Positions 9,391 through 56,962 of a stretch of 64,000 bases of DNA are shown here, one piece after another. The position numbers and the translations under genes were made by a program. Position 1 is the first letter of the stretch, and every line of letters starts with the position of its first letter. The stretch covers positions 1 through 64,000 of the forward strand of contig QNGE01003232.1 in NCBI GenBank assembly GCA_008508345.1. The letters run 5' to 3'. A model generated the notes under the pieces. It was given only the letters and a program-made list of their open reading frames with translations, made no database searches and was not told the DNA's origin. This DNA comes from Paragonimus westermani. Taxonomy: Eukaryota; Platyhelminthes; Trematoda; Plagiorchiida; Troglotrematidae.

Positions 9391-10205
9391 TCAGTGGATT
9401 GTATTGCGCTTAATTCCAGAAGTACTGACCCGGTGACAAAATCCGGAGTCCGAACCAAAGAGCTCAACGAAATCTATAGCTCGGCCATGTATGACACGTT
9501 TGAATACTTGAACTTTTTCTATCCAAACCGGAGTACAGACAAACAAACATCCCTGCTAATCGAGTCGGGTGAGCGGACAGGCACAACACGCCGCTGAAAC
9601 CACAGTCAAATTAATTAGGTCACTAATAAGTAGTTTGGTGGAGTTGATGATTTAGATGAGACCCAACTGTGAAAAGTCAGGGCCCCGACTGGATTCGAAC
9701 CAGCAACAGTAACACCATGCCCAAACGCGCAAGCGCTCTACTAGCCGAGCTACGGAGCCACACGAGGAGCTCAGAAATCTCACATTTGGACTCTGTTACC
9801 CACAAACATTTGGACTCTGTTACCCACACGTCCCACTGTCTCATATGCAGTCTACGAAATGATTCAGGGGATCGACTGTCCCGGCAGTTGTTCTCAATCA
9901 GTTCACGTTGGAATTTACCAGTTTTATTGTTTGGGAGGGAGATTAATTGGCTGTGGGTATAACGAGTGTGTATACGCGCATTTCCAGTCCAGTCACTTGA
10001 TCCATCGTCCCAGTAGACCGGCTGTCACGATCCACGATCACTAACACCCGAATGTTCACACACGTTTGGCATCGGAGAGGCAATTTTGGACGGAGTACTA
10101 ACACACATCGGTGAGTGCAAGTACACAAAGTAAGAATATGATATTTCCTTAACGGATGGTGGTATCACGATGGTTACTTCACCAAATGTTGTCTAGTAAG
10201 AAACC
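9391..10205 (+). repeat. Repeat-B copy 2, interrupted by SINE-A
   Basis: The left part (about 9391-9604) contains the block GGTGACAAAATCCGGAGTCC and then AATCGAGTCGGGTGAGC. The right part (about 9931-10205) contains CCATCGTCCCAGTAGACC, a run around GGCTGTCACGATCCACGATC, and a terminal ATGATATTTCCTTAACGGATG. Between them sits an inverted SINE-A copy, so this appears to be an older repeat split by a later SINE insertion. The family is unidentified. Confidence 0.5.
9605..9930 (-). repeat. SINE-A, best preserved copy
   Basis: Read on the minus strand, the head at about 9764-9684 has a TAGCTCGGCTAG A-box-like element and the better B-box GGTTCGAATCC. Flanking blocks match the 5.5 kb copy. Unlike that copy it has an internal duplication of about 23 bp around GTGGGTAACAGAGTCCAAAT (9783-9830). 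It is nested inside repeat-B copy 2. Confidence 0.8.
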
Positions 10206-11839: not shown

Positions 11840-13196
11840 CTAAATACAAACTGTCGGTTTGGCTAGGGTGAGGTCAATGGACGTGAAGAGTGCTGTGACA
11901 TCAAACGAAATCATTGTTTCGTCTTCTTTTATCCTAATGTGCTTTAGTTTGTTCAATAATTGTACAGCATTGCTGATGGGATGTTCTGATCCGTCGATGA
12001 GATATCGTAGCCGTTTGAATAGGTCTTTGGCCAAATTGTAGGTCGGTGTGCTCGGTAGAGATGCAATTGGCTGTAGTGGGACACCATCTTTGTGTATTTT
12101 TCGGTAGTCCGTAGAATTGAGCAGTGGTTGTATCTTTCGGCTGCATTTTCCAGCGCTCCTGCTTGCTTATCTCATGCGAAGCCTCTAGCTTATTTAGTGT
12201 GCTGTTGATTTTGTTGGCCAGTTTTTTGGTGAGATCAGTATTGAGTAGGCGGTAGGTGGTTGTGTCGTTGAGCAGTTGTTTTGCTTTCTTCACGTAGTCT
12301 ACCTTGTCCATGATAACTGTCATCCGTCCCTTATCAGCTGGCAAAATGATGATGTTGTCATCCTTTTTGAGGTTGTTCAAAGCTCGTTGTTCGCGTTGTG
12401 TAAGGTTATTGGTCGGCTTATTGCGGGTCAATACTGGCACGATAGTTTGTCGGATTTGGTGTTGTGCCTCTTCCGGTAAGACGTTGGATTTCATTATGTG
12501 TTCCAAGTTTGCTAAGTATTCTCTGTTTGGTGCATCTTTCGTGTTAAAATTGAGTCCTTTTACAAGTACATCTTGCTCGTCGTTGGATAGTGGATGGTTT
12601 GATAGGTTTCTGATCCACGTATAGTTGCTGGGGTTAGTATGCTTCTTCGACAGTCTTGAGAGTTTCTCTTCAAGGGCTATTCTCTTCTTATTCGTGGTTC
12701 TTGCTACTCACTGTCCTATTGCTGCATCTAATTTCTGTAGCTGATGTTTGTCTATTATTTGTTTACACTCCTCTCTTTTGGCTGTCACGATGCTCTCGTA
12801 TTTTTGTAACCGATTGTGAGCATCGGTTATCAACATACGTAACATCTGTCTCCCGTTTTGTCTGGCTATTTCCCAAGCCCGTGGATGACTGAGTGGTGGT
12901 CTGTAGTTGATACCTGGAGGGAGAATGTTTTGACGCAGGCATTCATGCAAGAAGAATAGTTGCTCACGTGTGGAAGCCCCTTTGCATGCAAAGGTCTCCC
13001 AGCAACGAGCTGTTTTTAGCGTTGTGCGCCCATGTAGGTTTCTGATGTTTGGAACATTGGTGGTGGTGTTCGTAGCTCGGGTTGATGGTTTCCGTATTGA
13101 TATGTTCGCCGAGCTTGGCATTTGGGTTGCAAACGTTTCATAACCAAGTGAGGTGACATCATCAGTGCGTGAATGTTTCAGCGCTGAAACACTCAC
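11840..13196 (-). pseudogene. Penelope-like element (PLE), RT N-terminal half, degenerate
   Basis: Minus-strand remains of a Penelope-like retroelement ORF, in at least three frames. The N-terminal part is 13196-12708. The next part reads through to 11934 and holds the pre-RT signature IIILPADKGRMTVIMDKVDY, followed by a TTYRLL segment and the YGLPK motif typical of PLE reverse transcriptases. After a frame break near 12085, the 12034-11840 segment carries SFDVTALFTSID, the motif holding the first catalytic aspartate of the palm. The YxDD box, the thumb and a GIY-YIG endonuclease are not found downstream, so the element stops about one third into the RT. It is non-functional. A Penelope-type assignment is firm at family level; the lineage is not resolved. 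Confidence 0.8.
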
Positions 13197-15370: not shown

Positions 15371-16359
15371 ACAAGAAACCAGAGCGGCTCATTCCTTATG
15401 TAAATCTGTTAACCCCCGAACTGAGAAAACTTGCTTTCCCTACTTGCATTCTCCATCGAAGTCACCAACCTGAAATTTGGTTCCAATGCCCTGTTCACCT
15501 ATTTTGTTTTAACCAATTTTGTTAATAATTGTTTTGCCTCGCGGGTAGCCAGCCACGACCTGGTCTACTCGATTAACTGTTCACTTATGACCTAGTCGAC
15601 TCCGTCCGGAACCCATTGGTTTTGTTGAATGCGACTATCGTTGCGAGCGATTGCGTTTTGTTTAGTGTATTTATTGCTGCATTCGTTCAGTAATACCGCA
15701 GAAATATTTGAGTCCACTCTTGTATTCAACTTATGGCTGCATTTTCGGGCCAAAAATTACTCAACGATTAGCGTTACACCTTGTCTCTGATCTTAGGTTT
15801 AACACTGAGCTGCGATTGGCTTTGGATAGCTGTTAATTTGCCTCTTCGTTTTTGCGAATGCCGATGCACCAAGAAAAATTCGATTAAGAAGTGTGCGGTA
15901 ACCGTTATTGAATTTTTAAGATCTCTAATTAACCTGTTCCACACGCACTGGCAAAAACGATGTGATTTTACACGCTTCTTCGATACGGTTGCGCGTCAGT
16001 CTATCATTTAACATGATTATTTATTCGTCTGAAAAAAACAGAAGCATTCGGGCGTTCTCAGGCCTGTCCCAACTTCTGCTAATCTACGTTGCAACTGAAC
16101 AAACTGTTAAGCACTACCTGAAGGAAAGATGTTGTCTTCAGCACAACTTTGCGAATTTCCTTGCCACACTTATCAACCCATCATACTTCACATGTGGTTT
16201 GACAAGAACATGTAAACATTCGAACCGTTGGGTCCGCCTATCTGCTGTCTCCACCGGTGCCTACTATCAGAGGTCAAACAAATGTCACTTCCCTCATTCT
16301 GGCAGACAAACAAGACTCGAAATTTCTAGCCTGTCAATAGCCGCTTTTTTAATCTCTGG

Positions 16360-16403
<44 letters not shown>

Positions 16404-18867
16404 TGGTCAAGTCGGGTGATCCACTCAAAATTCAGCAGCCACAAATTTGGTAAGACTGCGTTTGCTTGTTCTATCCGTGTAGTTCCAAAGCACACATTGT
16501 AAGATTGACACTGTACGTGATCAAAATGCCAACCAGAGTCAGTAGGCCACAGCTCCAAGTGTGACTTTCATCTAGGCCCACCTCAACAAACAACATCATT
16601 TAATGGAAATTTCAAGTCTGTGCTTGTTCAGCTTTGTCTGCCTTGAACGCGAGCCCAATCAAAATGTCATTTATGAAGTTTTCATCGATCTTCATTTCCT
16701 TATACTAACAAGCAACGCTGCCTTGAAATCGATTAGACTTGCACCAACCTGATGAACACCACAACAAACTTTCCTGTAGCAGTCTGGCCATTAGTTTTTT
16801 TAAACGAGTTAACCGTTCCTTAGTCTGTTTTTCTCTCAGTCTCATCAATTACAGTTGTTAATCATCACTTTTAATCTGTTACCGCCGTTTCCAGTCACTT
16901 CTGAATATTTTAGGCAACAGGGGCGGCAGTCGAGCAAACGAGATGCAAATCCACTCTGACACACATTTGGCGGGTAGGTCGTTCGAATGCAATCAGTTAA
17001 AAGGTCATATATGAAAAATGCTATAACCGTTTTTTATAAGTCTAAAGCACTCAATGTTTAGTTCGTGAATGACAGAGCTTTGAATAACTAGAAGGCTGTA
17101 TACAATGAGATGGAACAGCTGAATTCCATCTGGTCATTACCTTGAATTGGGCCTTCGATGTCTCTACAACCGACTGATTAAGTCACATTTCGACAGGTCA
17201 CCAATTGGTACTCTGTATGCGAGACAGAATTCAAGTTGAGCTCAAAAGAACACTATTAAACAGCCACGTTACTAGAACCTGTCTGACGAGATGACCGAGG
17301 ACTCCTTAAATATCTGAACCGCAGGATGGGTGTAGTCGGTCAACCGAATGCACCACTCGACCGTACTGTTCGGTTTGGTGAGTAGTATCACAAGCTCATA
17401 TCAAAACCTGACGTAACTGAGTATGTGAGGCAGTGGTGCGCACGTGCTCATTCCACATCCTGGAGCAGAAAAACATCTCTTACCCAAAATCAGGTCCAAT
17501 TATCGTTATGATTTGATCATATCTCACAGCTTGTCTCGTCTACACTTTTCAGATATGGACACTGTGTTTAGTGTATTTGTAACTAAGTTAGACAAGACTC
17601 CTTCGCGCGTCGACTGTCTTCACCAGCACATGCAGTTGCAACGGTTGATACCAAACTAACGGTAAGAAGGGAACAACCTCGAACCCGATGTTAGTTTCAG
17701 CGTGGAAGAAATAGGCGACCGGATACTGTGGATACATTTTCATTTATTTCAAATTACAGCCACCTTCACAGGCGAGGATAGGTGAAGTGATTGGTTAGAG
17801 GACTTTGAATGAACATGCACCAATCACATTTTTCTCTTTAGATGCTTGAGTCACGAAGGGTTCTTCTAATGGACGGTCATCGGACTAATAGCAAAACACT
17901 CCTGGTTGATTGTTTTCGTGCTGTTCCAATCGGTTGATAGCATGTCGCTGTCTAGAAACGGCTCCTCCGGAATATGGAATCGCCACAGTTTTGTTGGTAC
18001 GCGAACAATGTTATTATCAAAGTACCAGTTAGTTTAACTGGCTCTCGGAATGTAGAGGTCTGGATTATGGGAAAATTAGATTGCTAAAAGGCTAGTGGTT
18101 CCCAATAGAGATACGGGTTAAGTGTTGCCAGGACTTCAGTAATTTTGGTGCAAATATTCACCAACTAAGGAAGCTTTACAAGGAAGACAGATGACTGTTG
18201 AGATTGAAAAGTGCTACTGATTTTGCATAAGATCTTATATTGCACAGGCTTTGACGGTTCTAGGCATCATACTTAGAACGCAAGGTTACCTTATGCCTCG
18301 AAAAAGGTTTCTGATATAATACAACACAAAAGCCGGCTGCTTTTATTCTCATTGCCCACAGCTCTTGCGGATCACTTTTGAGCAACGTGGAGACACCCGG
18401 GACAGCGTTCTTCCAATGTAGGGGTTTCAGCAAAAGTCCTGTAAAAAGAAGCAACACAAACAAGCATGAGCAAGAAGCCCATGCACACAATTTACATAAA
18501 CCGGAACCACAATGGCGCCAAAAACACGATCTGTCACAATTCAAATTTAGTCTGTGCGCGCGTGTTAGTTTCAACTGCGCTTTACAATACATATTGAGAC
18601 AAAAGTTCATCCCGCCTCTTAGTTAACAAGTAGTAATTTATCGTAAGAGAAGAGCAGCCGCGATAAAATCAAACGGCGACCCTTTCTGCTGTAAATATAC
18701 GAAAGCTTGGTAGAACGTGTTTTGCTATTCTCCTGTGGTACTATGTCATCTCGTTTAGACAGTTCTGACAATGGAATGTAGTTAGTTGCTGCAAATTGGG
18801 CTTCATTGGTGGTCTAGCTGTATACTGTTGTTTTCACGTGTCATCAACTGCCGTAGTGAGGACGGGC
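15371..18867. other. Gene-free stretch
   Basis: No supported gene. The 163-codon plus-strand frame at 15962-16453 ends in an alternating Ile-Tyr run created by the TA microsatellite and is rejected. Opposed open frames at 18260-18610 (minus) and 18378-18626 (plus) have no recognisable motif. Confidence 0.45.
16361..16402. repeat. (TA)n microsatellite, about 21 units
   Basis: Uninterrupted TA dinucleotide run of about 42 bp, self-complementary and likely polymorphic in length. Confidence 0.95.
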
Positions 18868-19163: not shown

Positions 19164-19199
19164 GAGATTGCTGATGAACAGTAGGCGATTTTGGTTTTC

Positions 19200-19390
19200 A
19201 CATAAATTGAACATCACCCACAACTGATCGTAGCTGTCGCATTCCCATAGACTCTCGAGCAATCGGAGCATTAGTCTCAAGCAAATGTGGTTCAGCGTTG
19301 ATATATGACGATTCAATCTTGCCTAATGCGAGGTCAATGGTGCGGTAGTCAACATGGCTGCCCCTTGTAAACGTGGCTGGAGGTAAGATT
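19200..19390 (+). repeat. SINE-B fragment (degraded copy)
   Basis: A tRNA-like head remnant lies at about 19325-19385 (GCCTAATGCGAGGTCAATGG, then AACATGGCTGCC), matching the heads at 26.5 kb and 30.9 kb. Upstream, near 19215-19250, GATCGTAGCTGTCGCATTCC resembles the SINE-B tail in inverted orientation. No hammerhead core is recognisable in this copy. Confidence 0.5.
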
Positions 19391-22949: not shown

Positions 22950-23110
22950 TATGGGCTTCAGCTGGATTCAAACCAGCAACAAAAAGATCGTGCCTAAACC
23001 CGGTAGTGCTCTGTCAGTTGAGCTACGAAACCATATCAGCGACTCAGAAGTTTCACATTTTGACTTAGTTCCTCGCTCAACCTACTGTTTATATAGCATC
23101 TCCATTCCCG
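22950..23110 (-). repeat. SINE-A copy, diverged
   Basis: The minus-strand head has a GTAGCTCAACTGACAGAGC A-box region and a B-box-like GGTTTGAATCC, followed upstream by the TGTGAAACTTCTGAG block. The middle of the tRNA-like part differs from the 5.6 and 9.7 kb copies, so this is an older or subfamily copy. Confidence 0.65.
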
Positions 23111-26100: not shown

Positions 26101-26404
26101 AGGATTGTAACTTCTTTGCGAATTAATTTTTCATACATCTGGGAGATCTACGCCGTTTGATTGTTACATACTTGACAAAAACACGCATGATTACGTGCTC
26201 AACAGTCTGCATATGTCCAACTATGTTAGAGCATCCGAGCAAGCATTTCGACGTTCATAAAGTGTCGCTATCCAATCCGTGTAGTAACTGTTTATTTACG
26301 AAGTTACTACAGAACAAGAATTTCCTCGCGTTGCTAATTAGACCAAATGTGATGGTTACTGATGAGTAGTCGGGGATTTGGTTTATTTTCAAGTTGACCA
26401 TCAC
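23111..26404. other. Gene-free stretch, nothing recognised
   Basis: Scattered open frames below 120 codons (for example 23819-24172 plus) have no motif and no convincing splice context. No repeats were matched by eye to other parts of the window. Confidence 0.4.
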
Positions 26405-26450
26405 TCACATTTGATCGCAGCGTTCGCATTCAGATAGACTTTCCAGCCAG

Positions 26451-26468
26451 CCTTTTTCGAAAAAGGCA
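26451..26468. repeat. Perfect 18-nt palindrome beside the hammerhead
   Basis: GCCTTTTTCGAAAAAGGC is identical to its reverse complement and overlaps the last two bases of the ribozyme's helix I strand. A hairpin-like relative (AACCTTTTTCGAAAAGAAGG) occurs at 30855-30874 in the other SINE-B copy. Confidence 0.9.
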
Positions 26469-26511
26469 CTAGACTCGAGTTTCGCTCTCATTAGAGCTCA
26501 TCAGTAGTGCA
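26467..26511 (-). ncRNA. Hammerhead ribozyme
   Basis: On the minus strand: helix I strand GCACTA (26511-26506), core CTGATGA (26505-26499), helix II GCTCT/AGAGC with AATG loop (26498-26485), GAAA (26484-26481), CTCGAG plus TC (26480-26473), and closing helix I strand TAGTGC (26472-26467). All required core residues (CUGANGA, GAAA, the U-C before the cleavage site) are present, and the first helix II pair is the canonical G-C. Cleavage is expected after C at 26473. Helix III is minimal (A-U, C-G and a four-base loop), as in retroelement hammerheads; because CTCGAG is palindromic, two transcripts could pair into a dimeric form. A further AAAG/CUUU pairing could extend helix I past a bulge. Self-cleavage is predicted, not shown. 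Confidence 0.9.
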
Positions 26512-26640
26512 TATCTTTACCACGGCCGCGATTTGAACTCCGGCCATTCCAATCATGAGGCAACCGTGTTAACCACTGTGCCACTGACCTCACATTAGGC
26601 ACGACCGAATTATCAAATCTGAACGCTCAACCACCCTTGC

Positions 26641-29600
26641 CTATGAGCAATGATCATGTGATGGGTCCATGAACAGTACGATCCAGAATGGAGTCAATTT
26701 TTTCCTCACTAGCTAATGCATATCTTAGACTGAACAATTTCTTTGTTTCTTTTCACGTGTGACTCTTCTCGCATTTCCGAATAAACGTTTACGTTGAAAC
26801 GCACCATATGTTTCAAAAGTCCAGTTTTTAATGAGCCACGTCAGTTTCAAAGTCGGTGAGATTACATTAGCTTCTGCTCAACTGGACATGACATTTTAAG
26901 CAGTATTCGAATTTGACTAGTACTGAACGCCTGTTGCAGTTCCGTTTTATGAAGTTAGCAGGATCATTTCTTTGTGTACAAGCTCGTCGGAATGAATGTA
27001 CAGTGAGGTGTTCAGGTGACTACACAATCCAAGTGAAACAGCATGAAGTTCATGAAGATTGGGTCCGGATTTTCGAATTCCATGTAGACGATAATTGATT
27101 TTGCAATGAAAAGTCGTTCAGTAAAGATCTTTTTTGTCCAATTCGCACGTTCCCATGTCACTCACGCACCCACGTTTATGAACCGAGGCTTCCATCTAAA
27201 CGTCATGTGCATTCCTACTTGCTTCCGTGAGTTTGACTGACGCTTTTTGTCGTGAATTTTAGTTTGCCATTTTTCACCCGCTGGTCCAATTTGGTTGGGT
27301 AGTGATTTGTTCGGTCGCTCGCTTTGTCCGCAATGTATCCGTTCTGTATTTGGACCATATCTCAATACCGCATCGAGATTGTCCACTGAGTGTTAGGATA
27401 ACTGCGTCTCCGACTTGGTCATCCGTCAAAGTACGACTGTAGAAGGATGGGTACGGATGGTGTGACAAATCGCGGGGGCATGGTCAGCCATGTCATGTAA
27501 ACACATCTTAGAGGTGTGTTTATACTCGTTACGATGAAGTCAGGCAATCGGGAGCAAGCAGGTGGGTAGCGCTGTTGACTTAATGTATGCACTACATAGA
27601 AAAAGAGGTTCGAAGTATTGAGGGATGGGATAGTATGAATAACGACACGTTTGTGTTCCATCTTAATTTGTTGCACTGAACTAACTCACTAAGGATCAGT
27701 ATGTCACTTGAATGTTTGCGCTAATCCACACAGTTTTCTAGCGTCACTTGTGGTAATCTGTCAATCACAATCTCGTCATGGAAGGAAAAACAGAGCAGTT
27801 GAGATAAATTATAACATTTAGGTTCAAAGGTCCGGCACAGACGTCGTACAAGTTTAACAGTTGGGAGGGGAAGACCCAACTTTTCATGTGGTCTCCAGGC
27901 CACTAGGTCAAAGGAACAACTGTCACACAGAGTGACCGGGGGTGAAGCTAGCGCACATTTTGCTGCTAACGATCCAGATGTGTTTTCACATTTGTTATCA
28001 GCTTTTGGAGCAACGTGTTTCGCGACTGGAACCTCATCGACTAACAGGCAGAAACGTCTTATTACGTCAGTAGGTCCAGGCTGTCCGAATAAATGGACGT
28101 ATGGCTGATACAAGAACGTCGACGAGATAATGACAGTGTTGCAGATTGCCTGTGAGATGATCTGACTGTCCGGAATGGATGATGCATAGAATCTGCCCAC
28201 GGAACTGCTTGATCAGGGTTTGGAGGATACTTTTATCACATTCGAAATTGAATCCTTGTTAACGATACTAAGATTGCTGTTCTTGTGCCGTTGGATCACT
28301 TACCTATGTTCCATTACGAGACTTATCATGCTCATATACATACGTGGCATACAACGTGTTGAGCATACATAGAGCTATCGTGTGCGACTTTGTAAACTGC
28401 CATGGATACTGTACTATTGACTGATAGGGGAAGCGCCTGTATTTCATTGTTGTGCATAGTCTGGTTCACATTGAACAAACCACCCAGGAAGTTACTGCAG
28501 AAGAATGAAGTGACACAGTTTGCATCCCTGTTGGCGTGGCTACTTAGCCATAACAAGTTAAATGTATTGCTTCTAACACACAGGCTATTAGTACTAACAC
28601 ATGTGAACGCAGAACACAGACCTGAAACACAAGCAAGTACATATTTGTTGTTTATGCCACTACACAGGAACCATTTAAGACACCAGTAGAATGTTAATGT
28701 ATACGGAACCAAAGACAACTGATGAGCAGTAAGACTGAACCGATTAGGTTAGATCACCGTGTAGGTTTGGCTGTAGTGAATGTACGTTTGCTTATGGAAT
28801 GTTTTCTCATCTCTTTTGTTGACGTCACTCTAGTTGAGATGTCAGATAAGCCAAGCCAACATAGGTCAAATGAAAAATCTGCTTCATGCACCTAACGAAG
28901 TAAATTCTCAGCGTTCACGCAACCAGAAACTCAACAGATGATATTTTTGAAGACATCCGTCTTTTTTTACGGTCATGTCAAAAAATACTCAAAAACGCCG
29001 AGATCAACAAGAAACCGTAAGCGTGTGCCAGAAATATAGAGACTTGAAGCGGACCTAGTTGAATATATGGATATATTTATATGTATATATGATTCAGTAT
29101 GATGATGATCAGAGTCGGACAAAATCCTGGAGACAAGAAATTTACAAGTTTCAAGCTGATGAAACAGTAAATTCTTTGCGACTGAAAAAAGGAATGTCAC
29201 TTACGTTAGAAAAATGTCACATTGATCAACGAAGTTCTATCGGATCGGTTGTCAGGACAGGCGACTGACCAGGCAACGATTATTGAACAGCTAATCGACT
29301 GCAGACATATCACTACCCCTAGGTGAATGAGGCCAGGTTGGCTGACAAACCGGATGATCAGTCAGACGGTTTTTAGTTGACCAGACTAAAAAAGCAACGT
29401 CAAGCGACTAAGAGACCGGGATTGTTTGCCTGCATTGTGAACGAATCAAAGGATGATCCCCAGTATCGATGACAAGACTGTGGGATGGTATGTAGGAAGA
29501 ACTCCAAACTGGATGTCAAATCGAAAGCGAACGGTGTATTTATGTGAGCCAAAGTCGAAATGCACACAGTTTTGACACAAGTGCGACTCTTGGGCTGTAA

Positions 29601-30794
29601 TCGGCCTATATAAAAAACGTGTTGAAGCAATTAGTGTAGCATCACAGTAAATCGGACTGACAGGTGTTAATGTATTTGCAAAGCACTCAGAATGAACCCT
29701 ATGATGACCACTGTACGGATGCTACTATAAAATACCTTCGAAACTCACGATGATATAATATATACACGAGGTTGGGGACATCCATTTCCGAATCAACCTC
29801 TTGATAATCACAGCCAATTCAGGCCTGTCTAAAAAGACCTACACAGGTGAGTTGTGCTGCACCTTATGCGATTTCACTCATACACCAATAGTAATTGTAA
29901 ACCCGAAAGAATGAAGTCGGAAACCGTGTAAATGGAAACTTTTAAAACCCAACAAGCCAGTGATAGTTAGCTACGTGATAGACTAGCATGAAAATGGAAC
30001 CTTTATCTTTGAGAACCAAAACAAACAGTAAGGAAGAAACACTTTGAAAACATAAGGCGAAAAGCTGTTCGATGCAGGCAGATATATTAGTGAGCTTTGT
30101 ATAAGATTAAATACTAAACAGAGGATGAAATGTGAACGGAGAAACCAAGCAAAACCTTCGGAATAGACTGCACCCAGGGAAACGAGGGGAACAAGTAGCC
30201 GACCAACATGATCCGAGTTTCTGAAAAGGAGGTGATTGGTTCTACAGACGAACGGAGGTTGCTGATCAACACGGCTGGCGGCAGCCGTTTCGGACTAAAT
30301 CGTTACGGTGACCAAATTCATAGGACGCCTGTGTATAACCACAAATGACCTGCGGTGCACCATTTGTGGTTTGACTAACACACACAAGTGGACAAAGAAC
30401 AGACAAGAGGATTTATGGTACTCAACTCACACGGAACAAATAGACGCGTGAAGTACAAAGCTCTAGCTTATACTTGCCACATTTCTATATGAATACACTG
30501 GATAAATCCTTTTTTCTGTTTACTCTGTACCTATTGGTGTAATCTCGTATGTGTCATTTGGTGAATACTAATTGCATCGGTTTTCCCTGCCATGTAACTG
30601 CAACGTCACAATCCACGTCACCTCTGTTATGCCCATAATGAATGACTCTAACGCAGTAGTCCATACACGGCATTCCATGTTTTACCAATGCCAACATCTT
30701 GTGGCTTTTTGTATATCGGTATTCCATGTCGTCGTTAACAGGGCGGTTTTCATACTCGAACCACGAACAGGGTAGTATAGGCCATTTGTCAACT
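26641..30794. other. Gene-free stretch with one long unexplained frame
   Basis: No gene is recognised. The longest frame is 159 codons on the minus strand, 28200-27721. It has cysteines and no membrane segment and resembles no family I know, and I found no convincing exon structure around it. Overlapping frames on both strands at 28332-28718 are probably chance. A fragment at about 30207-30257 resembles part of the direct repeat found at 31.3 and 33.8 kb. Confidence 0.4.
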
Positions 30795-31050
30795 TCAAGT
30801 TGAACATTATTCAGAGTTGATGACAGCCCTCGCACTCAGGTAGACTTTCTAGCCAACCTTTTTCGAAAAGAAGGTTGAGGATTCACATGTGACAATCCGT
30901 TCGTGCCTAGTGTGAGGTCAATGGTGCAGGGGGCCAACACGGTTGCCTCATAAAAACGTAGCCAGAGTTCTAGTCCTGGCCATGGCAACGGTATGCACTA
31001 CTGACAGCTGAAAAGTCTATCTGAATGCAAAGGCTGCAATCAACTGTGAT
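30795..31050 (+). repeat. SINE-B copy with degraded hammerhead
   Basis: The tRNA-like head is at about 30905-30985 (GCCTAGTGTGAGGTCAATGG, then CCAACACGGTTGCCTCAT, then an eroded B-box GAGTTCTAGTC). It is followed at 30995-31016 by GCACTACTGA joined to CAGCTGAAAAGTC, that is the start of the hammerhead with the middle deleted. The tail GTCTATCTGAATGC matches the 26.4 kb copy. Before the head, 30800-30855 resembles the tail in inverted orientation. Confidence 0.7.
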
Positions 31051-36520: not shown

Positions 36521-38020
36521 ATGGACAAAGCACTACGACCGGAACGATTCAACACCGACCCGGATTCATCTGATGCAAGAAAACAATGGAACCACTAGTA
36601 CTTCACATTTCAAAATCATTTTACACCTCTCAAAACACCCGACGATGAGAAATTTCAAGTTCTCGCAAACCTCGTGAGTTCAGATGTCTTTGAATGCGTT
36701 GCGGATTGTAAACAATATAAGGATGCTATTGATGCTCTCATCTCTTTGTACGTTAAACCGAAAAATATCATCTACGCACATCTACTCAGCACATGCAAGC
36801 AGGAGGTCGGGCAGAATTTAGATCAGTTCATGCAGAAACTGAAACGCCTTGCCAAAGATTGTGGTTTCAAAGCAGTCAATGCTTCAGAGTATCATGATGA
36901 AACGATACGAGATGCATTCATAAGGGGTATGCTATCAAACAAGGTTCGCCAACGATTAATGGAGGAAGACGATAGAGACCTTGCCAAAGCTTTCACTCAA
37001 GCTACAGCTTTGGAAACAGCTGAATCACAGTCCTTGTCGTACAAACACCCACATGTGCCCTACAATGAATCCTGTGCTTTGCATTCACCCGTTTCTATTG
37101 ACCCTTCAGACTCTGGTAAACCTGACTCTAATCTGGCTGCGACAATACCCAAATGTTTCTTTTGTGGATATAACAAACACTCACGCTCAAAGTGTCCAGC
37201 CAGGGAAGCGCTTTGCCGTAACTGCAGAAAAGTGGGCCATTTTCAACGATTTTGTAAGTTTGATCCAAGTGATAAACGTGTGGTATTCTGTACCAAACCT
37301 CAGCTGTTCACTGCCTGCACAGCTGCTTTCCCTACTTCTCCTTCTAAAGCGGCAGTTCAAATTACTGCAAATGGAATTTCCCTTGATGCTTTCATTGATA
37401 ATGGAAGCTCAGACAGCTATATTCGTTCTGACATCGCTTATAGGCACTGTTGGCATATCTATCCTTCCAATTTGGCTATTTCTATGGCTTCCACTACCTA
37501 CACAAGTGTGACTCAAGGACACAGTCTCGTTACTGTTGATTGCCGTGGTAACTGCGATTCTTCAGTAAAACTTTTCTTGCTCCCGAACTTGTGTTCCGAT
37601 GTTTTACTTGGTCATGATTTCCTAAAACATCAACATATTCTTACATCTTTCGGTGGTTCAAAGCCTCCGTTTTCCTTGTGCTCGCTGACAGCTGCCCATG
37701 TAGAACCCCCAACACCTTTTGGCGATCTATCTCCCCTTTGCAAACCAAGTGCCACAAAATCTCGAGGACTAAGCTCACCCGACCGGAAATTCGTGGAGTC
37801 AGAAGTGCGTCGTCTACTCGCCGAAGGGATAATTGAACCATCTTGTTCGTCGTGGAGAGCTCAGGTATTGGCGGCATCTAATGCAAAAAACCATAAGAAG
37901 CGTATGGTTGTGGATTATAGCCAAACAGTTAATCGTTTCACGTATTGGGATGCGTATCTCTCACCTCGCAATGACGAGCTAGTGGAGAAAATATCACAAT
38001 ACGAGATCTAAACCACCGTG
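36521..38020 (+). pseudogene. Gypsy-2 gag-protease region, nonsense mutated
   Basis: A frame beginning at ATG 36521 is interrupted once by TAG at 36596-36598 and then stays open to 38011. It encodes a capsid-like helical region, two zinc knuckles (CFFCGYNKHSRSKC and CRNCRKVGHFQRFC, both C-x2-C-x4-H-x4-C, from about 37154), and a retropepsin whose active site reads FIDNGSSDS (DNGS in place of the usual DTGA/S, aspartate codon at 37397). The start of RT follows and is cut by the insertion at about 38017. Gag and protease are fused in one frame. Confidence 0.85.
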
Positions 38021-38408
38021 TAGTGACTCGCAGATACCCCCGGTCTGCCTGCTGTACGATGTGTAAAATACTTCCTAAGATCTTAGCTCACACTGTACAT
38101 AGGACCTTAAGGATCTTTGCCTGCTGTCTGCCTGATGCATGAGGTCGCGGTTGTTCGTCTGCATGCTGGTCGGCGTATGCGCGCCAAGCGCGACACACGC
38201 TGTTTCCGGCTTGCTCGCGCGCTCGACAGTCGGATCCTTATCCTCCCTAGCTGTTTCGCGTATCGGTGTCGCCTAGCGCTGGTCGAGACTATTTGTAATT
38301 ATCGCATAATATATTTTCAGTCGAGCAATTATTTGTATTTTCATTTCGCGTCTGGCATTTCTGCGTACACTTGAGGAAACGTTAATTTAGTGCACGTACG
38401 CACTAAAA
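38017..38408. mobile_element. Insertion of about 390 bp splitting Gypsy-2 RT
   Basis: RT coding runs into TCTAAACCACC at about 38020 and resumes at TTAGACCTCCAGAGTGC from about 38410. The intervening DNA begins TGTAGTGACTCGC and ends CGCACTAAAACC. Its ends form a weak inverted pair (TGTAGTG and CACTAAA) and an ACC is present at both junctions. The insert is CpG-rich in the middle and has no coding match. The TGTAGTGAC start resembles the TGTAGCGAC start of the Gypsy-1 LTR, so a solo LTR of another gypsy is one explanation and a small DNA transposon is another. Confidence 0.6.
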
Positions 38409-39275
38409 CCTTAGACCTCCAGAGTGCTTATCATCAGTTTTGTCGCATACCTTTCGGTGTTACAAACGGTGTTGCCTGTTTCCAGCGGCTCATTACAGCA
38501 TAATCACAAAAGCCAATTTGAAAGGTACTTTCTCTGATGTCGACAATGTCACCATCTGCGGCCAAAACATGTCAGAACACAATATAAACTACGGCAAGTT
38601 TCTAAATGCTGTCAAATAATTTGGCCTCACTTTCAACGAGGACAAGACCACAATCGCCGCTCGTACAATCACTCTCCTCGGCTTCCAGATAAATCATGGA
38701 GTTATAAAACCAGATCCTGAAAGATTCCGAGCATTACGTGAACTTCCACCTACTCCCGACCTCAAATCTCAGCAGAGGACCGTTGGAATGTTTGTTTACT
38801 ACTATAACTGGATCTCTCATTTTTCCGACAAGATTCACAATCTCATACATAAGATTTTCCCGCCTCCAGATGGTGTTAAACAAACTTTTGAAGACTTCAA
38901 GCGTGAACTTGAGAATGCTGCAGTGGTCACTATCAACTATAAAATACCCCTAGTTGTAGAAACTGATGCCTCTGATACAGCTATAGCCGCGACACTCAAC
39001 CAAGATAGTCGACCTGTTGCATTTTTCTCGCGAACTCTCAATCCTAGTGAAAGAAATCATTCCCCTATTGAAAAGGAAGCCTACGCAATCGTCGAAGCTC
39101 TTCGCAAATGGAGACATTATCTCCTTGGTGTCCATTTCAAACTTTTGACTGATCACCAATCTGTATCTTTTATGTTTTATGATAAGCATAAAGGAAAAGT
39201 GAAAAAAGGATAAAATTCTGCGATGGAGAATCGAACTCTCATGTTTTAGTTGTGACGTTGTTTACAGGCCTGGTA
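38409..39275 (+). pseudogene. Gypsy-2 RT C-terminal part and RNase H, broken
   Basis: The RT segment resumes with LQSAYHQ and PFGVTNG motifs, then a DVDNVTICG box in place of the usual YxDD, a TAA within the following stretch (about 38616), and the LLGFQI segment. RNase H follows in the frame at 38788-39213, with the ETDASDTAIAATL motif (first catalytic Asp), FFSRTLNPSE and the LLTDHQS motif. Several frames are used, so no full product could be made. Confidence 0.8.
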
Positions 39276-39322
39276 AAGAGAACCAGGCTGCTGGGGCCTT
39301 ATCACGAGGTTATTGTGCTTTC

Positions 39323-40326
39323 ATGAACTCATTTGATCTCAAACAACTACATGAATCATTGTGTCATCCTGGTGTTACACGTATGTTACACTTTGTGAGA
39401 TCAAAGATCTTTCCATTTCCTACCGAAGACGTGAAAGCATCGATTGCTCGGTGCCTCACATGTGCCGAACTCAAACCCAGATTTTATACACCACCCAGGG
39501 CGAACCTCATTAAAGAGACAACCTTTTGGAAGATTAAGTGTTGACTTCAAAGGACCTCTCCCATCTACTTCTCGCAATAAATACCTTCATATTGTTATTG
39601 ACGAGTTTTCTCTGACATATCTTCTACCGTCATTATTTTTGTCAACTATTTTCTATTTTTGGACTAGCTGCTTTCGTACACTCGGACCGTGGTACAGCAT
39701 TCATGTCTTCAGAACTGAAAAATTTCCTTCACGGAAAAGGTGTAGCTACCAGCAGAACCACACCATATAACCCAGCTGGAAATGGCCAATTAGAACGGCT
39801 TAACTCAACACTTTGGAAAGCCATAACACTCACACTGAAGTCCAGGAACCTTCGAATCAGTTACTGGGAATCAGCATTTTTAGATGCTGTGAGATCTCTA
39901 CTTTGTAAGTTCACGAATACGATACCGCATGAGCGAATGTTTAGCTGCAATCGACGGTCAACTTCCGGAACACCGCTTCCCAAGTGGTTAATTTCAGGTG
40001 GTCCCGTACTTTTGAAGAAACAACAACGAGCATCCAAATACGATCCTGTAGTGGAAGAAGTTGAATTGTTGGACTGCAACCCGCAGTATGCACACGTCCG
40101 ACTGCCGAACGGGAAAGAACAGACGGTGTCGGTGAAACACGTAGCTCCTTGTGGGGAACCCGATGAACTTGGAAACTCCGAATGTTTGGCTGATGCTAAT
40201 GAAATCGCACATGAAATGTGTCCCAACGATGAGGCCGCTGACTCTCCTACTCCAACCAATTATGAATTATTAAAGCAAAAGCAGCAACGTCTTCACCCGT
40301 ATAATATGAGAAGCCGCGAAGCATAG
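39323..40326 (+). pseudogene. Gypsy-2 integrase, frameshifted
   Basis: The zinc-binding part has HESLCHPG and CLTCAELK (39323-39544). The core begins in another frame with VDFKGPLP (first Asp, about 39541) and switches frame before HSDRG (second Asp, about 39680). NGQLERLN (Glu, about 39784) follows in the frame that runs to 40326. The three acidic residues are present but are separated by frame changes. The C-terminal part includes a GGPVLLKKQQ segment, like the post-core region of gypsy integrases. Confidence 0.8.
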
Positions 40327-48720: not shown

Positions 48721-51700
48721 TTACACTGCGTCCACAACCTCCCATTCTTTCTCCTCAGCCTTCTCTCCGTCCTCATCTGCTTTCATACCATCCTAGAAGT
48801 AAGTGACGGGTTAGTTATATCATACGGCTTACAGCTTCGGTCTCCTTTTCAGTGTTTGCCTCTTCGTTGGCCTTGTTTTTCTCTGCCTCGGCAGCTGCTT
48901 TCTCTGCATCCCGCTTCGCCTTTTCCTTCTCAAATTGCTTATTTATGTCGAAAAGCACGCGATCCATTTGATCTCTAGCAGAACGTAACAGATGATGGTA
49001 GGTATTCGAGACAGATTTATATTCGTGAAGCTGTTTCTGTTCAGTTTTGAGCCGCGTCGACAAATCGTGGTTTTGCGCACGAAGCTCATCTTCAGTGTCT
49101 TTGAACGAATTTAACTGAGTACGAGTTTTTTCTAGCAAAATGGTACACATCATCTAGAAAACCTACCCAGCTCATCCTTTATTTGGAAGAACTGAAACTC
49201 CATCTTGCGTTTTTGATCCTCTGCTCTTTCTATTCGATGCGTCATCTCTGACGTATTGCCACCGCCAATTACGATTCTAGAAACATAGCACATGCAAAAA
49301 ATACATACTTTGCGGGGATTGGAGGCTGCTCGATATCAAACAGTGCACGATTCCCAAGAGCAAGCATTTTGACCACCTCCGTGTCTTCCTCATCATTCTT
49401 CTTGATAGTCACAACGTCTTTGACGTCACCCTCCGCTATGTCACTATCTGTTAGCTGTTGATATTGCACATGATCTCTTCGCGTGACAACTTTCGCGACA
49501 AGTCTCCGCATCTGCAAAAGGATCAAAATCGAAAATAGATTTGAAAACCAACCTGAGCCCTTGAATACCGGAGACCTAACAGATGCAGGATTTCACAAAG
49601 ATCATGTTCTCGAATATACCCAGCGTGGCCAAGATCGTAATAAGTGAAGGCAAACAACAGATCCGGACGGACTGTCCTGCGAAGACGACGAACCTTTGGT
49701 TCATCACTTTCATCGGCAATAAGCTGACCGTCATTCCGCCGACGCTTTATGTCGGGTTCCTGGTCATCATCCTCGTTGAGACCGTTCTCAACTCTGAAAA
49801 CGAAGTGAACGATTACTAGGCACCGAAAAGCTGAGGCAATTTCAGGAAATTAAAATCTTATCGTTTCTTGATTGCTCCAAGCATGAGGCGCGAGCGCTTA
49901 AACACGTTGAAGTGAATCAAAGAAATCAGATGAAGCTCATATATGGCTATTTCAAGCGTAACAATATTCCTCGTACTTTCCGTCTTGTTCAGATTTATGT
50001 TCCTTCTCAGGCGCATCGTTAATGGCCTTGAAGATTGCGAAGGCGCAGTCGCGCTGGAGCATTTCATGGAATTGCTCAGCAAATAAGGAGACCTCAAAAT
50101 TGTGCTCCTTCTGATCTTCCGTACGATAATCAAGTAGGGAGAAGAGCGACACGCGGTGACAATCAAATCGGCCTCCTCTGGCATTTTTGTTGGGATGAAC
50201 AATGATCGATGGTTTTTCATTCAGTCGATAGAGACGTTCCAACCTTCGGCGCTCTTTCTCAGACAGCTCCTTGGATTCATCCTTCGACTGTGTCGTTGGA
50301 GACGTGGGCTTAGTTGGTGCTTCCTCGGCTGAATACAAGTAGAAAGAAGGACGTTAGTGTAAATCAGCTTGCAGTCCATTTAATAAAAGTACTGCCATTG
50401 TAAGGTGCTCGAGGACCACAGGGACAATTCAGTCCCGCTAGCAATCTTCTTCGCTTCACTCGTTAAGTGCTCTCAACTTATGCATTACGCACTAATCCTT
50501 ACGTCACGAGTTGAGCAACGTACGCTCGCGCGCTCGCTGCAGACCCCGAAAGCCAGAGACAACAATAAACAGAAAGGTGAACGAACCTTTAGCTTCGGAG
50601 ACGACTTTGTTTTCCTCCACTGCATCGGCTTTTTTCTCTTCGTTCAACGCTGCTTGTAACCGGGCGACCAAATTCACTTTCAGGCCTCTGGTGTCCAATT
50701 TGCGGGCAGCCAGCTCGTTCCGCAATTCATTCACCTGAAACAAAATTAAACATGCAACTGATCAGTACCTTTAGTGTGTTAACATCCAATTTCGAATAAT
50801 GTGTCGGCTCCATATCAGACTGAGCACCAGTCTCATCAGCCTCTTCCATACTAGCATCAACCGTTGAAGTGTCTGGTTCTGGCACCTCAGGAGCAACCTC
50901 TAAATCCGGCTTTTTTTCAGGTACCAGAAGGTTTTGCAGAACCGACGAATAGTACTCTTTCGTTTTAGCCCATTCCTCCTCAGTGGGAATTAAGTGAGCA
51001 GCATTTGGAATGAAGAAAACGACCACTTCAGGACGTTCCGTGGACACTGTCCTTTCCTCATCGTCACCAGTAAATGCTGGCGCCTTGGTATCAGCAAACC
51101 GGTAATAATTGATCTCCATAAAACGAATCCTGCAATGCGAGAATTAACAGAATCAAAAAGCATTTACCATTCGGTACACGATGACAAATCAAGTCCAGTG
51201 TATCCCTTGAAAGTTCGAATAGCCGTATTTATTAGTGTTTTAGGATCACCGGCGGGGTCGGCGCCATCCAAACTCGGCGACCAAGGGCCGCCGATGGCCA
51301 TTGTTTCGCTCTTAGCTCGGCCGCCGACCAAAAAGTGAATATTCTTACCAGGAGGAACCTTATCACTGTTACTGGGATCATCGGCCATTCGACAGGTGTT
51401 TTTGTACAGCTCAGCCAACTGAGGGCAAGCCATCAACATGACTCGAGCGGAGTAAGAGTAGTCAGCATCAACCGGACTGATGAGTGACGTATCGGCAGGG
51501 GTCGGTGGCTCGACATCCCGGTGAAACACCTAGAAGTGTAATCATGAAATCTCAGGAGCTAGACATACATGATAGTCAGTAGCATTTCCCAGTTTAAACG
51601 GGCTATGCATTGGGAACGGTTCACACCAAGTGGACTCACACTGGTAGAAGTCAGAAGCAATATTTAGGCGCGGGTAACTATGCCGGAGCTCTGTTACTCC

Positions 51701-52137
51701 ACGCGTTTTCACGTTGAACAATGTCTTTGGAACTTTCACCTCATACTTCCCAAAAGGGGTTTGGCGCTTTCCGAACGGCCTGTGATCGCGACGTTGGCTG
51801 GGAGGCGTGTCATGGTAACGCTTTTCTACCGGACTTCGACCTTTTGGTGGGCCCCGCTTACCACCCCGAAAATCGTCACGGCGGTCAGCTCGACGGCCGT
51901 AATTTTCTTCGCGGTACGCACCATAAAACGGTTTCGGAACGGGGGGCGCGTTGTAAGGCCTGCGCTCTGCAGAAGGAGGCCCGCCAATATAGAATCCTAC
52001 ACCTACTCCCCCAGAACCCATATAGCCACCACCATAAGGTGCTGAAAATATGCAAAAATTTAGTTAATAATTGATACACAACACAAAAAACAGCCTACAC
52101 AACAGAACATACCGTTCCGACTCCACCTGCTCGCCAT
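48721..52137 (-). CDS. CCAR1/CCAR2 (DBC1)-family protein, 11 coding exons
   Basis: Exons in gene order: 52137-52113, 52041-51569, 51529-51168, 51129-50769, 50734-50587, 50328-49977, 49793-49553, 49511-49309, 49276-49167, 49131-48833, 48792-48721. All introns are GT-AG, and the joined length of 2646 nt gives an uninterrupted 881-residue frame. Visible parts: RG/Pro-rich N-terminus (about 10-75); a conserved stretch around HSYPRLNIASDF (about 125); DBC1/Nudix-like domain (about 185-320, with MAIGGPWSPSLDGADP); acidic linker; SAP domain (about 395-437, VNELRNELAARKLDTRG); a conserved block with NEKPSIIVHPN; an EF-hand-like region (about 615-660, FTYYDLGHAGY) lacking full calcium ligands; and a charged coiled coil to about 855. 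In animals this family is nuclear and acts in transcription co-activation and RNA processing. Vertebrate members also have an N-terminal S1-like domain that I do not see here. The closest resemblance is to CCAR1. Confidence 0.92.
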
Positions 52138-53776: not shown

Positions 53777-53884
53777 TCGTGGTAACAAACGTTTAAACTA
53801 GCAGGCCGGCGTGTTCTAGCGACGACAGCCACAGGCCAGTCAAACAGCAGTCGCCTTTTCTTTCTGAAAGATTTAACCTCCAAA

Positions 53885-56800
53885 ATGCAATTCTTAATAG
53901 ACACAGGGGCAGAGGTCAGTGTCATCCCGCATTCAGTAATGGATGCGCGTTCAGAATCCGGCACTACTCTCCGAGCTGCAAACGGTACGCCCATTAAAAC
54001 CTTCGGTCGTCGACTGATGAATTTAAACTTTGGCCTTAGACGCGATTTTCCCTGGGTTTTTCTCGTGGCCGATATTCCTTTCCCTATCGTTGGTATCGAC
54101 TTCCTCCGACATTTCGATTTACTGGTCGACGCACGTCGATCACGTCTGATCGATACCTCGACGAAGCTAAACGTTCAGGGTAAGCCATCACACGCGGCTG
54201 TGATCAGTCCTATGCTAGCCAATCCTCTAGTTTGCGAGCCTTACGGGAAACTTTTATCCGAATTCCCTCAACTGATCCGCCCCGCTAACGAACTGCCGGC
54301 CGTGACAACCGACGTTGCGCATCACATTGTCACACGAGGGCCGCCAGTTCGATGTCGTCCACGCCGTTTAGCTCCTGAAAAGCTCAAAATTGCCCGAGCC
54401 GAATTCGAGCATATGCTCCAACTCGGCATTATCCGTCCGTCCAATAGCCCGTGGGCTTCGCCATTGCACATGGTGCCTAAAAAGACTGACAACGACTGGC
54501 GTCCGTGCGGCGACTATCGAGCGTTGAACAACGCAACCACTCCCGATAGGTATCCAATTCCCCACATTCAGGACTTGACGGCAAACCTGTCAGGGAAACA
54601 GATATTCACAAAAATCGACCTAGTGCGCGCTTACAATCAGATTCCTGTAGCCCCAGAAGACGTCCCAAAGACAGCAGTCATAACACCGTTCGGGCTTTTC
54701 GAATTCTTACGCATGCCGTTTGGTCTGGGCAACGCCGCTCAGACTTTCCAACGTTTTATTCACGACGTGTGTCGCGGGCTGGACGGTGTTTATCCGTACT
54801 TAGATGATATCTTGGTGGCCAGCTCATCGCAGGAGGAACATTGCGTACACTTGCGTTCATTATTCACCCGGCTGTCGCATCATGGCGTTACCATACACCT
54901 GGCTAAATGCTCTTTCGGAGCGTCCCGCGTAGCCTTCCTGGGTCATAGTATATCCGCGAGCGGGATAGAACCTCTCCCCGACAAAGTACAGGCAATAGTG
55001 GACTACCCGGAGCCCACATCGTTCAAGCAACTTCGCCGTTTTGATGGTTTAGTGAATTTTTACCGTCGTTTCATCCCTAACTGTGCCTGTCTAATGCAAC
55101 CGCTCACCGACCTACTCAGAGGTAAGACACGTTCATTCTTATTCCCAACGGCCGCAAAAATGGCCTTCATTAATTTAAAAAGGGCCATCGCCAATATAGC
55201 ATCGCTGTCGCATCACCATCCGTCTGCTCCCTTGGCGCTAAGCGTGGATGCATCAGACGTGGCTGTAGGGGCGGTTCTGCAACAGCAACTCGGTGCCCAT
55301 TGGTGCCCGCTAGCCTTTTTCTCTAAACGGTTACAACCTACTGAGTCGCGGTATAGTGCTTTTGGGAAGGAGCTGTTAGCGGTATACCTCGGCATCCGCC
55401 ATTTTCGACATGTCCTTGAAGGCAGGGACTTTATCGTATTCACAGACCATAAGCCTCTAACGTATGCGTTACGCTCGACAACGGACAGGTATTCCCCCAG
55501 AGAGACGAGACATCTGGATTATGTCGCTCAGTTCACGACCAATATTCGTCATATTTCAGGTACTGCGAACCCAGTCGCCGATGCTCTCTCGCGCATTAAT
55601 GCTACACTGAGCACGACGGAAAGCTCAGTCGATCTGACGGCAATCGCAGCCGCACAGGACAACGACCCGGAGATAGAACAACTCCGCCGGTCCAGTTCCC
55701 TTAAGTTAGAAAGAGTCCCCATGAATTCCTCCGGTGGTCTGATTATTTGTGACACTTCACAAGGCATTCCTCGTCCGGTTATTCCATTGGCCTTCCGCCG
55801 CCGAATTTTCGATACGTTGCACAACATGTCTCACCCTGGCATACGTTCAACAGTCAAACTGGTCACGCAGCGCTTCGTCTGGCGCAACGTCAATCGCGAC
55901 GTCCGCACATGGGCGAAAGCGTGCATACACTGCCAGCGGTCTAAGATCCACCGTCACACGCGTACCCCAGTGGGAACTTTTGCAGCCCCCGATGAACGCT
56001 TCTATCACGTGCATGTCGACCTGGTCGGACCCCTGCCACCCTCGGATGGGTATACTTACATCCTGACATGCGTAGACAGGTTTACACGTTGGCCAGAGGC
56101 TATACCAATTCCGAATTGCTCGTCGGAAACCGTCGCACGAGCATTCTTAGAACGTTGGGTCGCTCAGTTTGGTTGCCCTGCTGTAGTGACTACCGATCGC
56201 GGGTCACATTTTGACTTAGCCTTCACTTCACTCCTCAACGCACTAGGCTGTAGTAGAATTCGCACAACAGCTTACCACCCGGCAGCCAACGGGTTGGTTG
56301 AGCGTTTTCATCGGCAGTTGAAAAGTTCACTATCCGCTAGCAACAACCCCTCATGGCACGAGGTTCTGCCACTAGTCTTGTTAGGTATCCGTAACACGCT
56401 GAAGGCTGACCTGCATACCACCCCCGCCCAGTTAGTGTATGGGTGCTCCTTACGTTTACCCGGCGAGTTGGTTGCCCCACGCGCAACGGGACCTATCAAC
56501 TTCGCAGATTACGGCGAGCGGCTAGCCCAACACATGAGGCGACTCCGACCACATCCACCGAGAGAACAGACGACGCCAACGTACGTACACCCTCGTCTGT
56601 CAACTTGTTCTCATGTTTTGGTTCGTGCGGTTACTCCTAGACGACCTTTGCACCCGCCGTATACCGGACCGTTTCGCGTCCTCGCACGCTATGCTAAGAC
56701 TTTCGTGCTGGAACGCAATGGTAAACGCGAGGTGATCTCTATCGATAGACTGAAGCCAGCGTTTATAGAGGTACCCGATAAGGAAACTGGTTCGCAAGCA

Positions 56801-56962
56801 GCAACGCCATCTTCAGTCGGTACATTACCTAGCGTTGGTACAGATTCGCTTTCAGTGGCGACTCCGCCTGCCTCGACGGGGCCAAGCCCCCAGAGCAGAC
56901 GCGGGCGAGATTTGCGGAGGCCAGTGCGATTCGCAGATTACGTGGACGTCCGCCGTATCTAA
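53885..56962 (+). CDS. Gypsy-1 Pol polyprotein (protease, RT, RNase H, integrase)
   Basis: An open frame of 1025 residues, full length for a gypsy Pol and without internal stops. Retropepsin: [13 protein letters not shown] with catalytic D6. Reverse transcriptase (about 155-345): [25 protein letters not shown], and the YLDD box at 305-308. RNase H (about 440-560): catalytic D455 in [14 protein letters not shown] and a [12 protein letters not shown] motif. Integrase: HHCC zinc site H646, H650, C680, C683, and the DDE triad D712, D771 and E806 (34 residues between the last two), followed by a GPF/Y module ([11 protein letters not shown]) near the C-terminus. The open frame extends upstream of the first ATG, so the true start is probably a frameshift product with Gag. 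All catalytic residues look intact. Autonomous activity is unlikely because gag is broken, but trans-complementation is conceivable. Confidence 0.95.

Follow-up and report, generated by a model that had tools for sequence, protein, structure and literature searches.

The window analysed here, a stretch of 64,000 nucleotides from Paragonimus westermani (contig QNGE01003232.1, positions 1 to 64,000), carries on its minus strand a repeat with a hammerhead ribozyme motif. We conclude that this repeat is very probably a non-autonomous, retrozyme-like hammerhead retroelement whose head bears transfer RNA (tRNA)-type boxes, moved by the machinery of Penelope-like elements (PLEs). Copies of the repeat end at two fixed, often inverted 3' ends and PLE copies from this genome obey an identical rule, so that movement by PLE machinery is the best reading of both observations taken together. 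An earlier reading from sequence only had classified the element as a short interspersed element (SINE). This label does not seem to fit in its ordinary sense of an element dependent on long interspersed elements (LINEs), since we find head-to-tail units of 432 nt and two fixed internal ends, which are often inverted and shared with the PLEs.

Hammerhead motif and repeat family

The motif at 26466–26510 (minus strand), situated downstream of a head with box A and box B, reads as a type I hammerhead that is complete and whose helix III is minimal. Helix I is formed by GCACTA (26510–26505) and TAGTGC (26471–26466) with six of six pairs, helix II by GCTCT (26497–26493) and AGAGC (26488–26484) with five of five pairs and an AATG loop, and helix III by the two pairs of AC with GT (26480–26479 and 26474–26473), which enclose TCGA. 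The core strands are CTGATGA (26504–26498) and GAA (26483–26481). Sequence and pairing thus provide the structural features of a type I hammerhead, namely the conserved core, three helices, a NUH cleavage site and an open helix I, and cleavage is expected after C26472. The sequence-only reading had placed a complete hammerhead at 26467–26511 with a cut at 26473. Core, paired helices and core matches across the genome confirm the motif, while the coordinates were one base off. Helix I might be extended by an outer stem, in which AAAG (26515–26518, minus strand), set apart from helix I by the bulge ATAT (26511–26514), faces CTTT (26462–26465, minus strand), the start of a T run and potential RNA polymerase III (Pol III) stop. 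Full 5/5 pairing of this outer stem was found in 24 of 47 copies compared to 39 of 282 slid controls, a weak control, as the stem was picked by eye.

The Rfam family RF02275 (Hammerhead_HH9) matches 26449–26522 on the minus strand with 37.1 bits, and matches all four other repeat loci tested with 34.7–38.1 bits; at the gathering threshold, no hammerhead was among the Rfam matches in the window. A covariance score below threshold had been named in advance as a reason to drop the ribozyme, and formally the score does fall short of the curated cut-off of 52 bits, yet its E-value for the whole window is 9.2e-6. A lack of further copies with paired helices, the second such reason, is contradicted by the copies themselves: among 47, all picked by their hammerhead core, 31 retain at least five of six pairs in helix I, all five pairs in helix II and a cleavable NUH. 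We use this pairing as description only and set covariation aside as proof of structure, because the copies seem to be derived from few masters and differ mainly by decay. Folded alone, the 74-nt hammerhead stretch is of ordinary stability (z −0.29).

The pattern CTGATGAG-N12-CGAAAC has 2150 exact matches (1081 + 1069) in the 823 Mb genome, compared to six (4 + 2) for the reversed control. The hammerhead is therefore not due to chance, and the proposal of a mobile family carrying a ribozyme is borne out by its high copy number. A chance origin or a dead motif is hardly credible for the hammerhead: such a view could point to the Rfam score below the curated cut-off and to the 16 of 47 copies without full pairing or cleavage triplet, but it would have to explain the 2150 matches against six, the full core with paired helices and the RF02275 scores in the further repeat loci.

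The head of the repeat comprises a box A-like TGGCACAGTGG (26573–26583, minus strand) and a box B-like GGAGTTCAAATCG (26529–26541, minus strand), both recognised by eye from the box consensus. Rfam tRNA gave no match at the repeat head in the window up to an E-value of 10 and none in four other repeat loci up to 1, so that the term tRNA-like is valid for the boxes only. From the claim of a tRNA-like, Pol III-type head on the strand of the hammerhead, a head with box A and box B is supported.

Repeat unit and insertion ends

From the first 100 listed of the 2150 places, 80 regions were taken, comprising 76 short ones and four of 10 kb. End and junction data are based on the 76 short regions and the three window copies, mapped against a 420-nt family sequence with joints read individually, while the four 10-kb regions, which contain hammerheads of other sequence, were treated apart. 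In three of the latter (L070, L071 and L073, near position 5000, plus strand) and also in L018, there is another type of hammerhead (CTGATGAGTC..GGACGAAAC) a short distance after a box B-like stretch; it perhaps comes from a sister family of ancient origin that has this design too. No PLE match was found near the hammerheads of other sequence in the four 10-kb loci (L070–L073).

Head-to-tail junctions of the form U420-TCTAAAATATCG-U1 and variants thereof, with U denoting unit positions, were observed nine times in eight loci. From their near-constant linker of 12–14 nt we derive a unit of 432 nt; two further, more diverged joints (L057 and L017) have longer gaps. None of the nine junctions has an open reading frame (ORF) between the units, and since reverse transcriptase (RT) and GIY-YIG frames are thus missing there, the repeat is not an autonomous PLE. 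Contiguous head-to-tail stretches cover 474, 489 and 683 unit positions, reaching about one and a half units, and long arrays are absent from the fetched regions. The repeat therefore shows the tandem, non-coding hammerhead units by which retrozymes are recognised.

Among 89 insertion clusters, nine lie at an edge or at N and 27 are old (<88% identity), leaving 53 young insertions for evaluation. From 83 terminal 3' ends, 38 fall at U414–428 (outer site, about U420) and 34 at U384–398 (inner site, about U390), with 11 elsewhere, so that 72 ends are confined to two intervals amounting to 30 of 432 unit positions. The two sites are 30 nt apart. The 5' ends, by comparison, are scattered along the unit. 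Two-tailed inverted copies account for 30 of the 53 insertions, and where both ends of an inverted insertion could be classified (20 cases), 19 combined one inner with one outer end and one was inner/inner (binomial p 4e-5). Target duplications with a score of at least 9 were found for 15 of 53 insertions compared to 11 of 2756 mismatched flank pairs. Two internal start sites at a distance of about 30–40 nt, an optional tail and inverted copies, which characterise PLE insertions, are consequently all displayed by the repeat. Within the unit, the two arms of an inverted copy overlap, so that this region must have been copied twice, unlike in LINE-1 twin priming.

These ends make it very unlikely that the repeat is a conventional tRNA-derived SINE that a LINE mobilises by target-primed reverse transcription, with twin priming behind the 5' inversions. 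SINEs do typically have a box A/B head, copies in the thousands, duplicated target sites and 5' truncations of variable extent, but neither the two fixed 3' ends, present one per side in 19 of 20 cases, nor the overlapping arms fit this explanation. It is further opposed by complementary DNA (cDNA) that begins within a longer template, and by the PLEs of the same genome, which show the same pattern in a comparison of ends that covers the repeat and these PLEs. Terminal inverted repeats of a DNA transposon were ruled out as well, as the apparent repeats are in fact 3' tails differing in length, and numerous copies have a single tail.

The copy that carries the hammerhead in the window (26356–26655, minus strand, 95% identity) spans U116–U420 and is a whole insertion, truncated at its 5' end and without an inverted arm. 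Its mapping extends to 26659 due to overlap with the target-site duplication ATGTGATGG, which, as the best flank match, is located at 26347–26355 beside the 3' end of the element and at 26656–26664 beside its truncated 5' end. Transferring the clusters of insertion 3' ends to this copy, the outer reverse-transcription start site, following ..CTCATCAGTAA, resides at 26356 (minus strand) and was used by the window copy, and the inner one, following ..CAACTTGAAAA, at 26386 (minus strand), approximate to a few bases. In a predicted fold of U304–U432, the inner site sits within an A/C-rich loop, with ordinary stability of the fold (z 0.42). Two older, decayed copies were mapped on the plus strand, in which the core scan found no hammerhead core: an inverted 3' tail, head and 3' tail at 30794–31049, and an inverted 3' tail followed by a head at 19168–19362.

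Penelope-like elements of the same genome

The window itself contains a broken PLE at 11849–13196 (minus strand), placed by tblastn and consisting of the N-terminal and RT part in several frames. A 257-aa piece thereof is 42–56% identical to proteins P0001, P0002, P0004 and P0005 and 44% identical to Trichobilharzia regenti. At the start of its ORF, the core scan and inspection by eye point to a hammerhead-like core (13132–13165, minus strand; no Rfam hammerhead match up to an E-value of 10), a position equal to that of the hammerhead ribozyme in the Anolis PLE (PMC11167929). Used as query, this piece yields at least 159 PLE matches in the genome, several of them in open frames of >800 aa.

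PLE leaders were compared in 38 loci and the window, where L090 is the window's own copy and L120 and L121 overlap L091 and L108. Counted from the hammerhead-like cut, leader ends mostly lie in one of two clusters, at +39 to +47 (L094, L095, L101, L108, L114, L117, L118) or at about +87 to +98 (L100, L104, L114, L118, L127). All seven insertions with both ends in these clusters (L094, L100, L101, L104, L114, L117, L118) combine one inner with one outer end. In L114 and L118 this is accompanied by a shared 13-letter flank word each, with ambiguous word edges. For further copies we had expected, without recording it, a far end of the other kind before the sequence was obtained, and this was right in all five that could be evaluated (inner for L100 and L104, outer for L101, L094 and L117), while a sixth, L095, is not judgeable as it continues past the leader as a tandem PLE. 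Duplication scores were 14 for L100, 12 for L101 and 16 for L094, with those of L104 (5) and L117 (4) at chance level. The joint of L127 at +30 is an internal deletion, because the same strand continues further down. L049, the locus of a single GIY-YIG match to Pfam (150 of 281 candidates scored), was rejected as a PLE candidate, as its five open frames of at least 80 aa do not look RT-like by eye.

Since the repeat has the hammerhead and tail in PLE order and shares the tandem and inverted arrangement, its 432-nt unit could also be a pseudo-long-terminal repeat (pLTR) or internal-deletion relic of a PLE family, i.e. a degenerate PLE instead of a SINE with acquired PLE signals, and solo pLTRs are indeed known (PMC3846280). 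We regard this origin as unlikely, however, in view of the box A/B head, of units joined directly by their short linker, and of the compared PLE loci, in which the only clear matches to the unit resemble old copies of the repeat. With regard to the mechanism of insertion, a degenerate PLE would be compatible with the reading we prefer, a non-autonomous partner moved by PLE machinery.

RNA template and proposed mechanism

Several results weigh against this preferred reading. All sampled copies were required to have an intact hammerhead core and stem from the first 100 listed places, and the comparison of end patterns covers only the repeat and the PLEs of this genome. The insertion L088, with ends at U430 and U417 outside the preset intervals, may be outer/outer, which would change the inner/outer count to 19 of 21 (p 2e-4). 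Among the PLE leaders, some joints are off the rule, with an inverted block ending at +140 in L096, an end at +20 in L126 and joints far downstream in the diverged L124. The cut point in the PLEs is a reading of the core, as Rfam finds no hammerhead in L098 and L100 up to an E-value of 1. Start sites follow the cut by 87 and 117 nt in the repeat versus about 40 and 96 nt in the sampled PLEs, no PLE family was found with the tail sequence of the repeat, and this tail does not resemble the leader of the sampled PLEs to a significant degree, its scores being reached by 46 and 88 of 500 shuffles. The family consensus additionally has TTTT directly after the hammerhead cut, a potential Pol III stop beyond which cDNAs extend nonetheless, which argues against the tail being simply transcribed by Pol III. 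Finally, cDNA 5' ends exactly at the cleavage site are not enriched genome-wide, with 12 matches compared to 16 and 13 for controls at U298 and U318, in a count whose pattern forbade three bases upstream of the cut. Linear cleaved RNA is thus not a preferred template. Five of the 12 joints at the cut (CAGTAGTGC places) resemble micro-homology joints, in which TAGTGC, the repeat of helix I, connects inverted arms.

A circular template would leave no footprint at the cut either. That a self-cleaving circular RNA, as in retrozymes, is the real template, with the hammerhead essential for spread, is a serious possibility, although we lean slightly against it. It would agree with the tandem units and with stretches exceeding one unit, but a linear multimer accounts for the same stretches. 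Helix III, being palindromic, could bring two molecules together by pairing, and metazoan retrozymes are expressed as circles (PMC7229834); hammerhead mutants of the Anolis PLE, on the other hand, still insert in vitro (PMC11167929).

We propose a mechanism in which RNA composed of units in head-to-tail order, or circularised from such units, would be bound by a PLE protein acting in trans, which would cut both target strands a few bases apart. The cDNA would then start within the element RNA at the two fixed sites downstream of the hammerhead, the outer site serving the extension of one target strand and the inner site that of the other. Head-to-head joining of the two cDNAs would create an inverted copy whose tails differ in length, one being long and the other short, along with a duplication of about 8–13 bp of the target, whereas extension of a single strand would give a simple 5'-truncated copy like that of the window. 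The role of the hammerhead is probably to cut multimeric transcripts down to unit length, and the boxes of the head may serve as promoter.

Comparison with known systems

The insertion anatomy finds its closest description in PLEs of the Penelope/Poseidon type, which likewise have a hammerhead upstream of two internal cDNA starts, may carry a tail of about 30 nt, and show inverted copies, tandem units and short target duplications (PMC11167929, PMC3846280). In Anolis, both strands of the target are extended by the PLE protein, which uses two adjacent internal RNA starts, matching a genomic tail of 30–40 bp; one start region lies 111–118 nt into the ORF with the cut at +26, i.e. 85–92 nt after the cut, compared to 87 nt for the inner site of the repeat (PMC11167929). 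In rotifers, Penelope copies contain an inverted pLTR and carry a tail of 31 bp on one of the inverted pLTRs; their duplications measure 8–10 bp, and trans-mobilised sequence is found between pLTRs (PMC3846280). In contrast to PLEs, the repeat has no ORF, bears a box A/B head and has a stem I longer than that of minimal PLE hammerheads (PMC7761336).

The likeness in design to schistosome Sm-alpha elements and to retrozymes, pointed out from the sequence beforehand, is supported by the hammerhead, the box A/B head and the tandem non-coding units. Sm-alpha and Sj-alpha are tRNA-related, SINE-like elements that, like the repeat, bear a hammerhead and reach a high copy number, with >38,000 hammerhead motif matches in S. 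mansoni and 5,000 in S. japonicum (PMC2770079), and the Sm-alpha hammerhead is of type I as well (PMC8490949). The likeness is one of described design; one S. mansoni member measures 335 bp (PMC8490949) compared to our 432-nt unit, and the available portions of PMC2770079 and PMC8490949 do not mention a PLE tail, which the repeat possesses. Metazoan non-LTR (long terminal repeat) retrozymes share tandem type I hammerhead units and non-autonomy with the repeat, and PLEs have been proposed as their movers, since hammerheads and tandem arrangement are common to both and the two are found together, with no linking motif given in the accessible parts of these sources (PMC7229834, PMC7761336). Beyond what is described for metazoan retrozymes, the repeat shows two start sites and a PLE-like insertion anatomy.

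As to the mover of animal hammerhead repeats, a link to PLEs can here be read from the insertion ends. While PLEs are already known to bear a tail on a single end of an inverted pair, its occurrence on a hammerhead repeat is new; among the matches listed in the open-licence literature, judged by title or start of abstract, there is no report of PLE tails on hammerhead repeats. The data also provide a genome view of the PLE reaction, as two start sites known in vitro are used one per side of the same insertion. As a tentative generalisation, for which the case is not yet an even one, hammerhead SINEs and metazoan retrozymes, Sm-alpha included, might be non-autonomous partners of PLEs, inserted on two strands from the outer and inner sites of two RNA copies on a dimeric PLE protein, with the hammerhead supplying the unit-length or circular template. 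The inner/outer end pattern is a prediction that can be checked in any genome with retrozymes.

Other features of the window

Two further tRNA-like sequences at 9680–9759 (35.5 bits) and 22953–23032 (32.6 bits), both on the minus strand and above the Rfam tRNA cut-off of 29 bits, possibly represent another tRNA-derived repeat family; only the second was among the Rfam matches given at the gathering threshold. LTR-retrotransposon coding regions are located on the plus strand at 36599–40326 and 53786–56962, the latter with RT, RNase H and integrase matches within a single 1058-aa open frame. Exons at 49952–52063 (minus strand) belong to a CCAR/DBC1-like host gene and include a LAIKA domain, whose exon is 70% identical to Protopolystoma xenopodis, and a DBC1 match just below the cut-off. 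A long run of TA dinucleotides at 16352–16419 (plus strand) attracts weak, probably spurious RNA-family matches.
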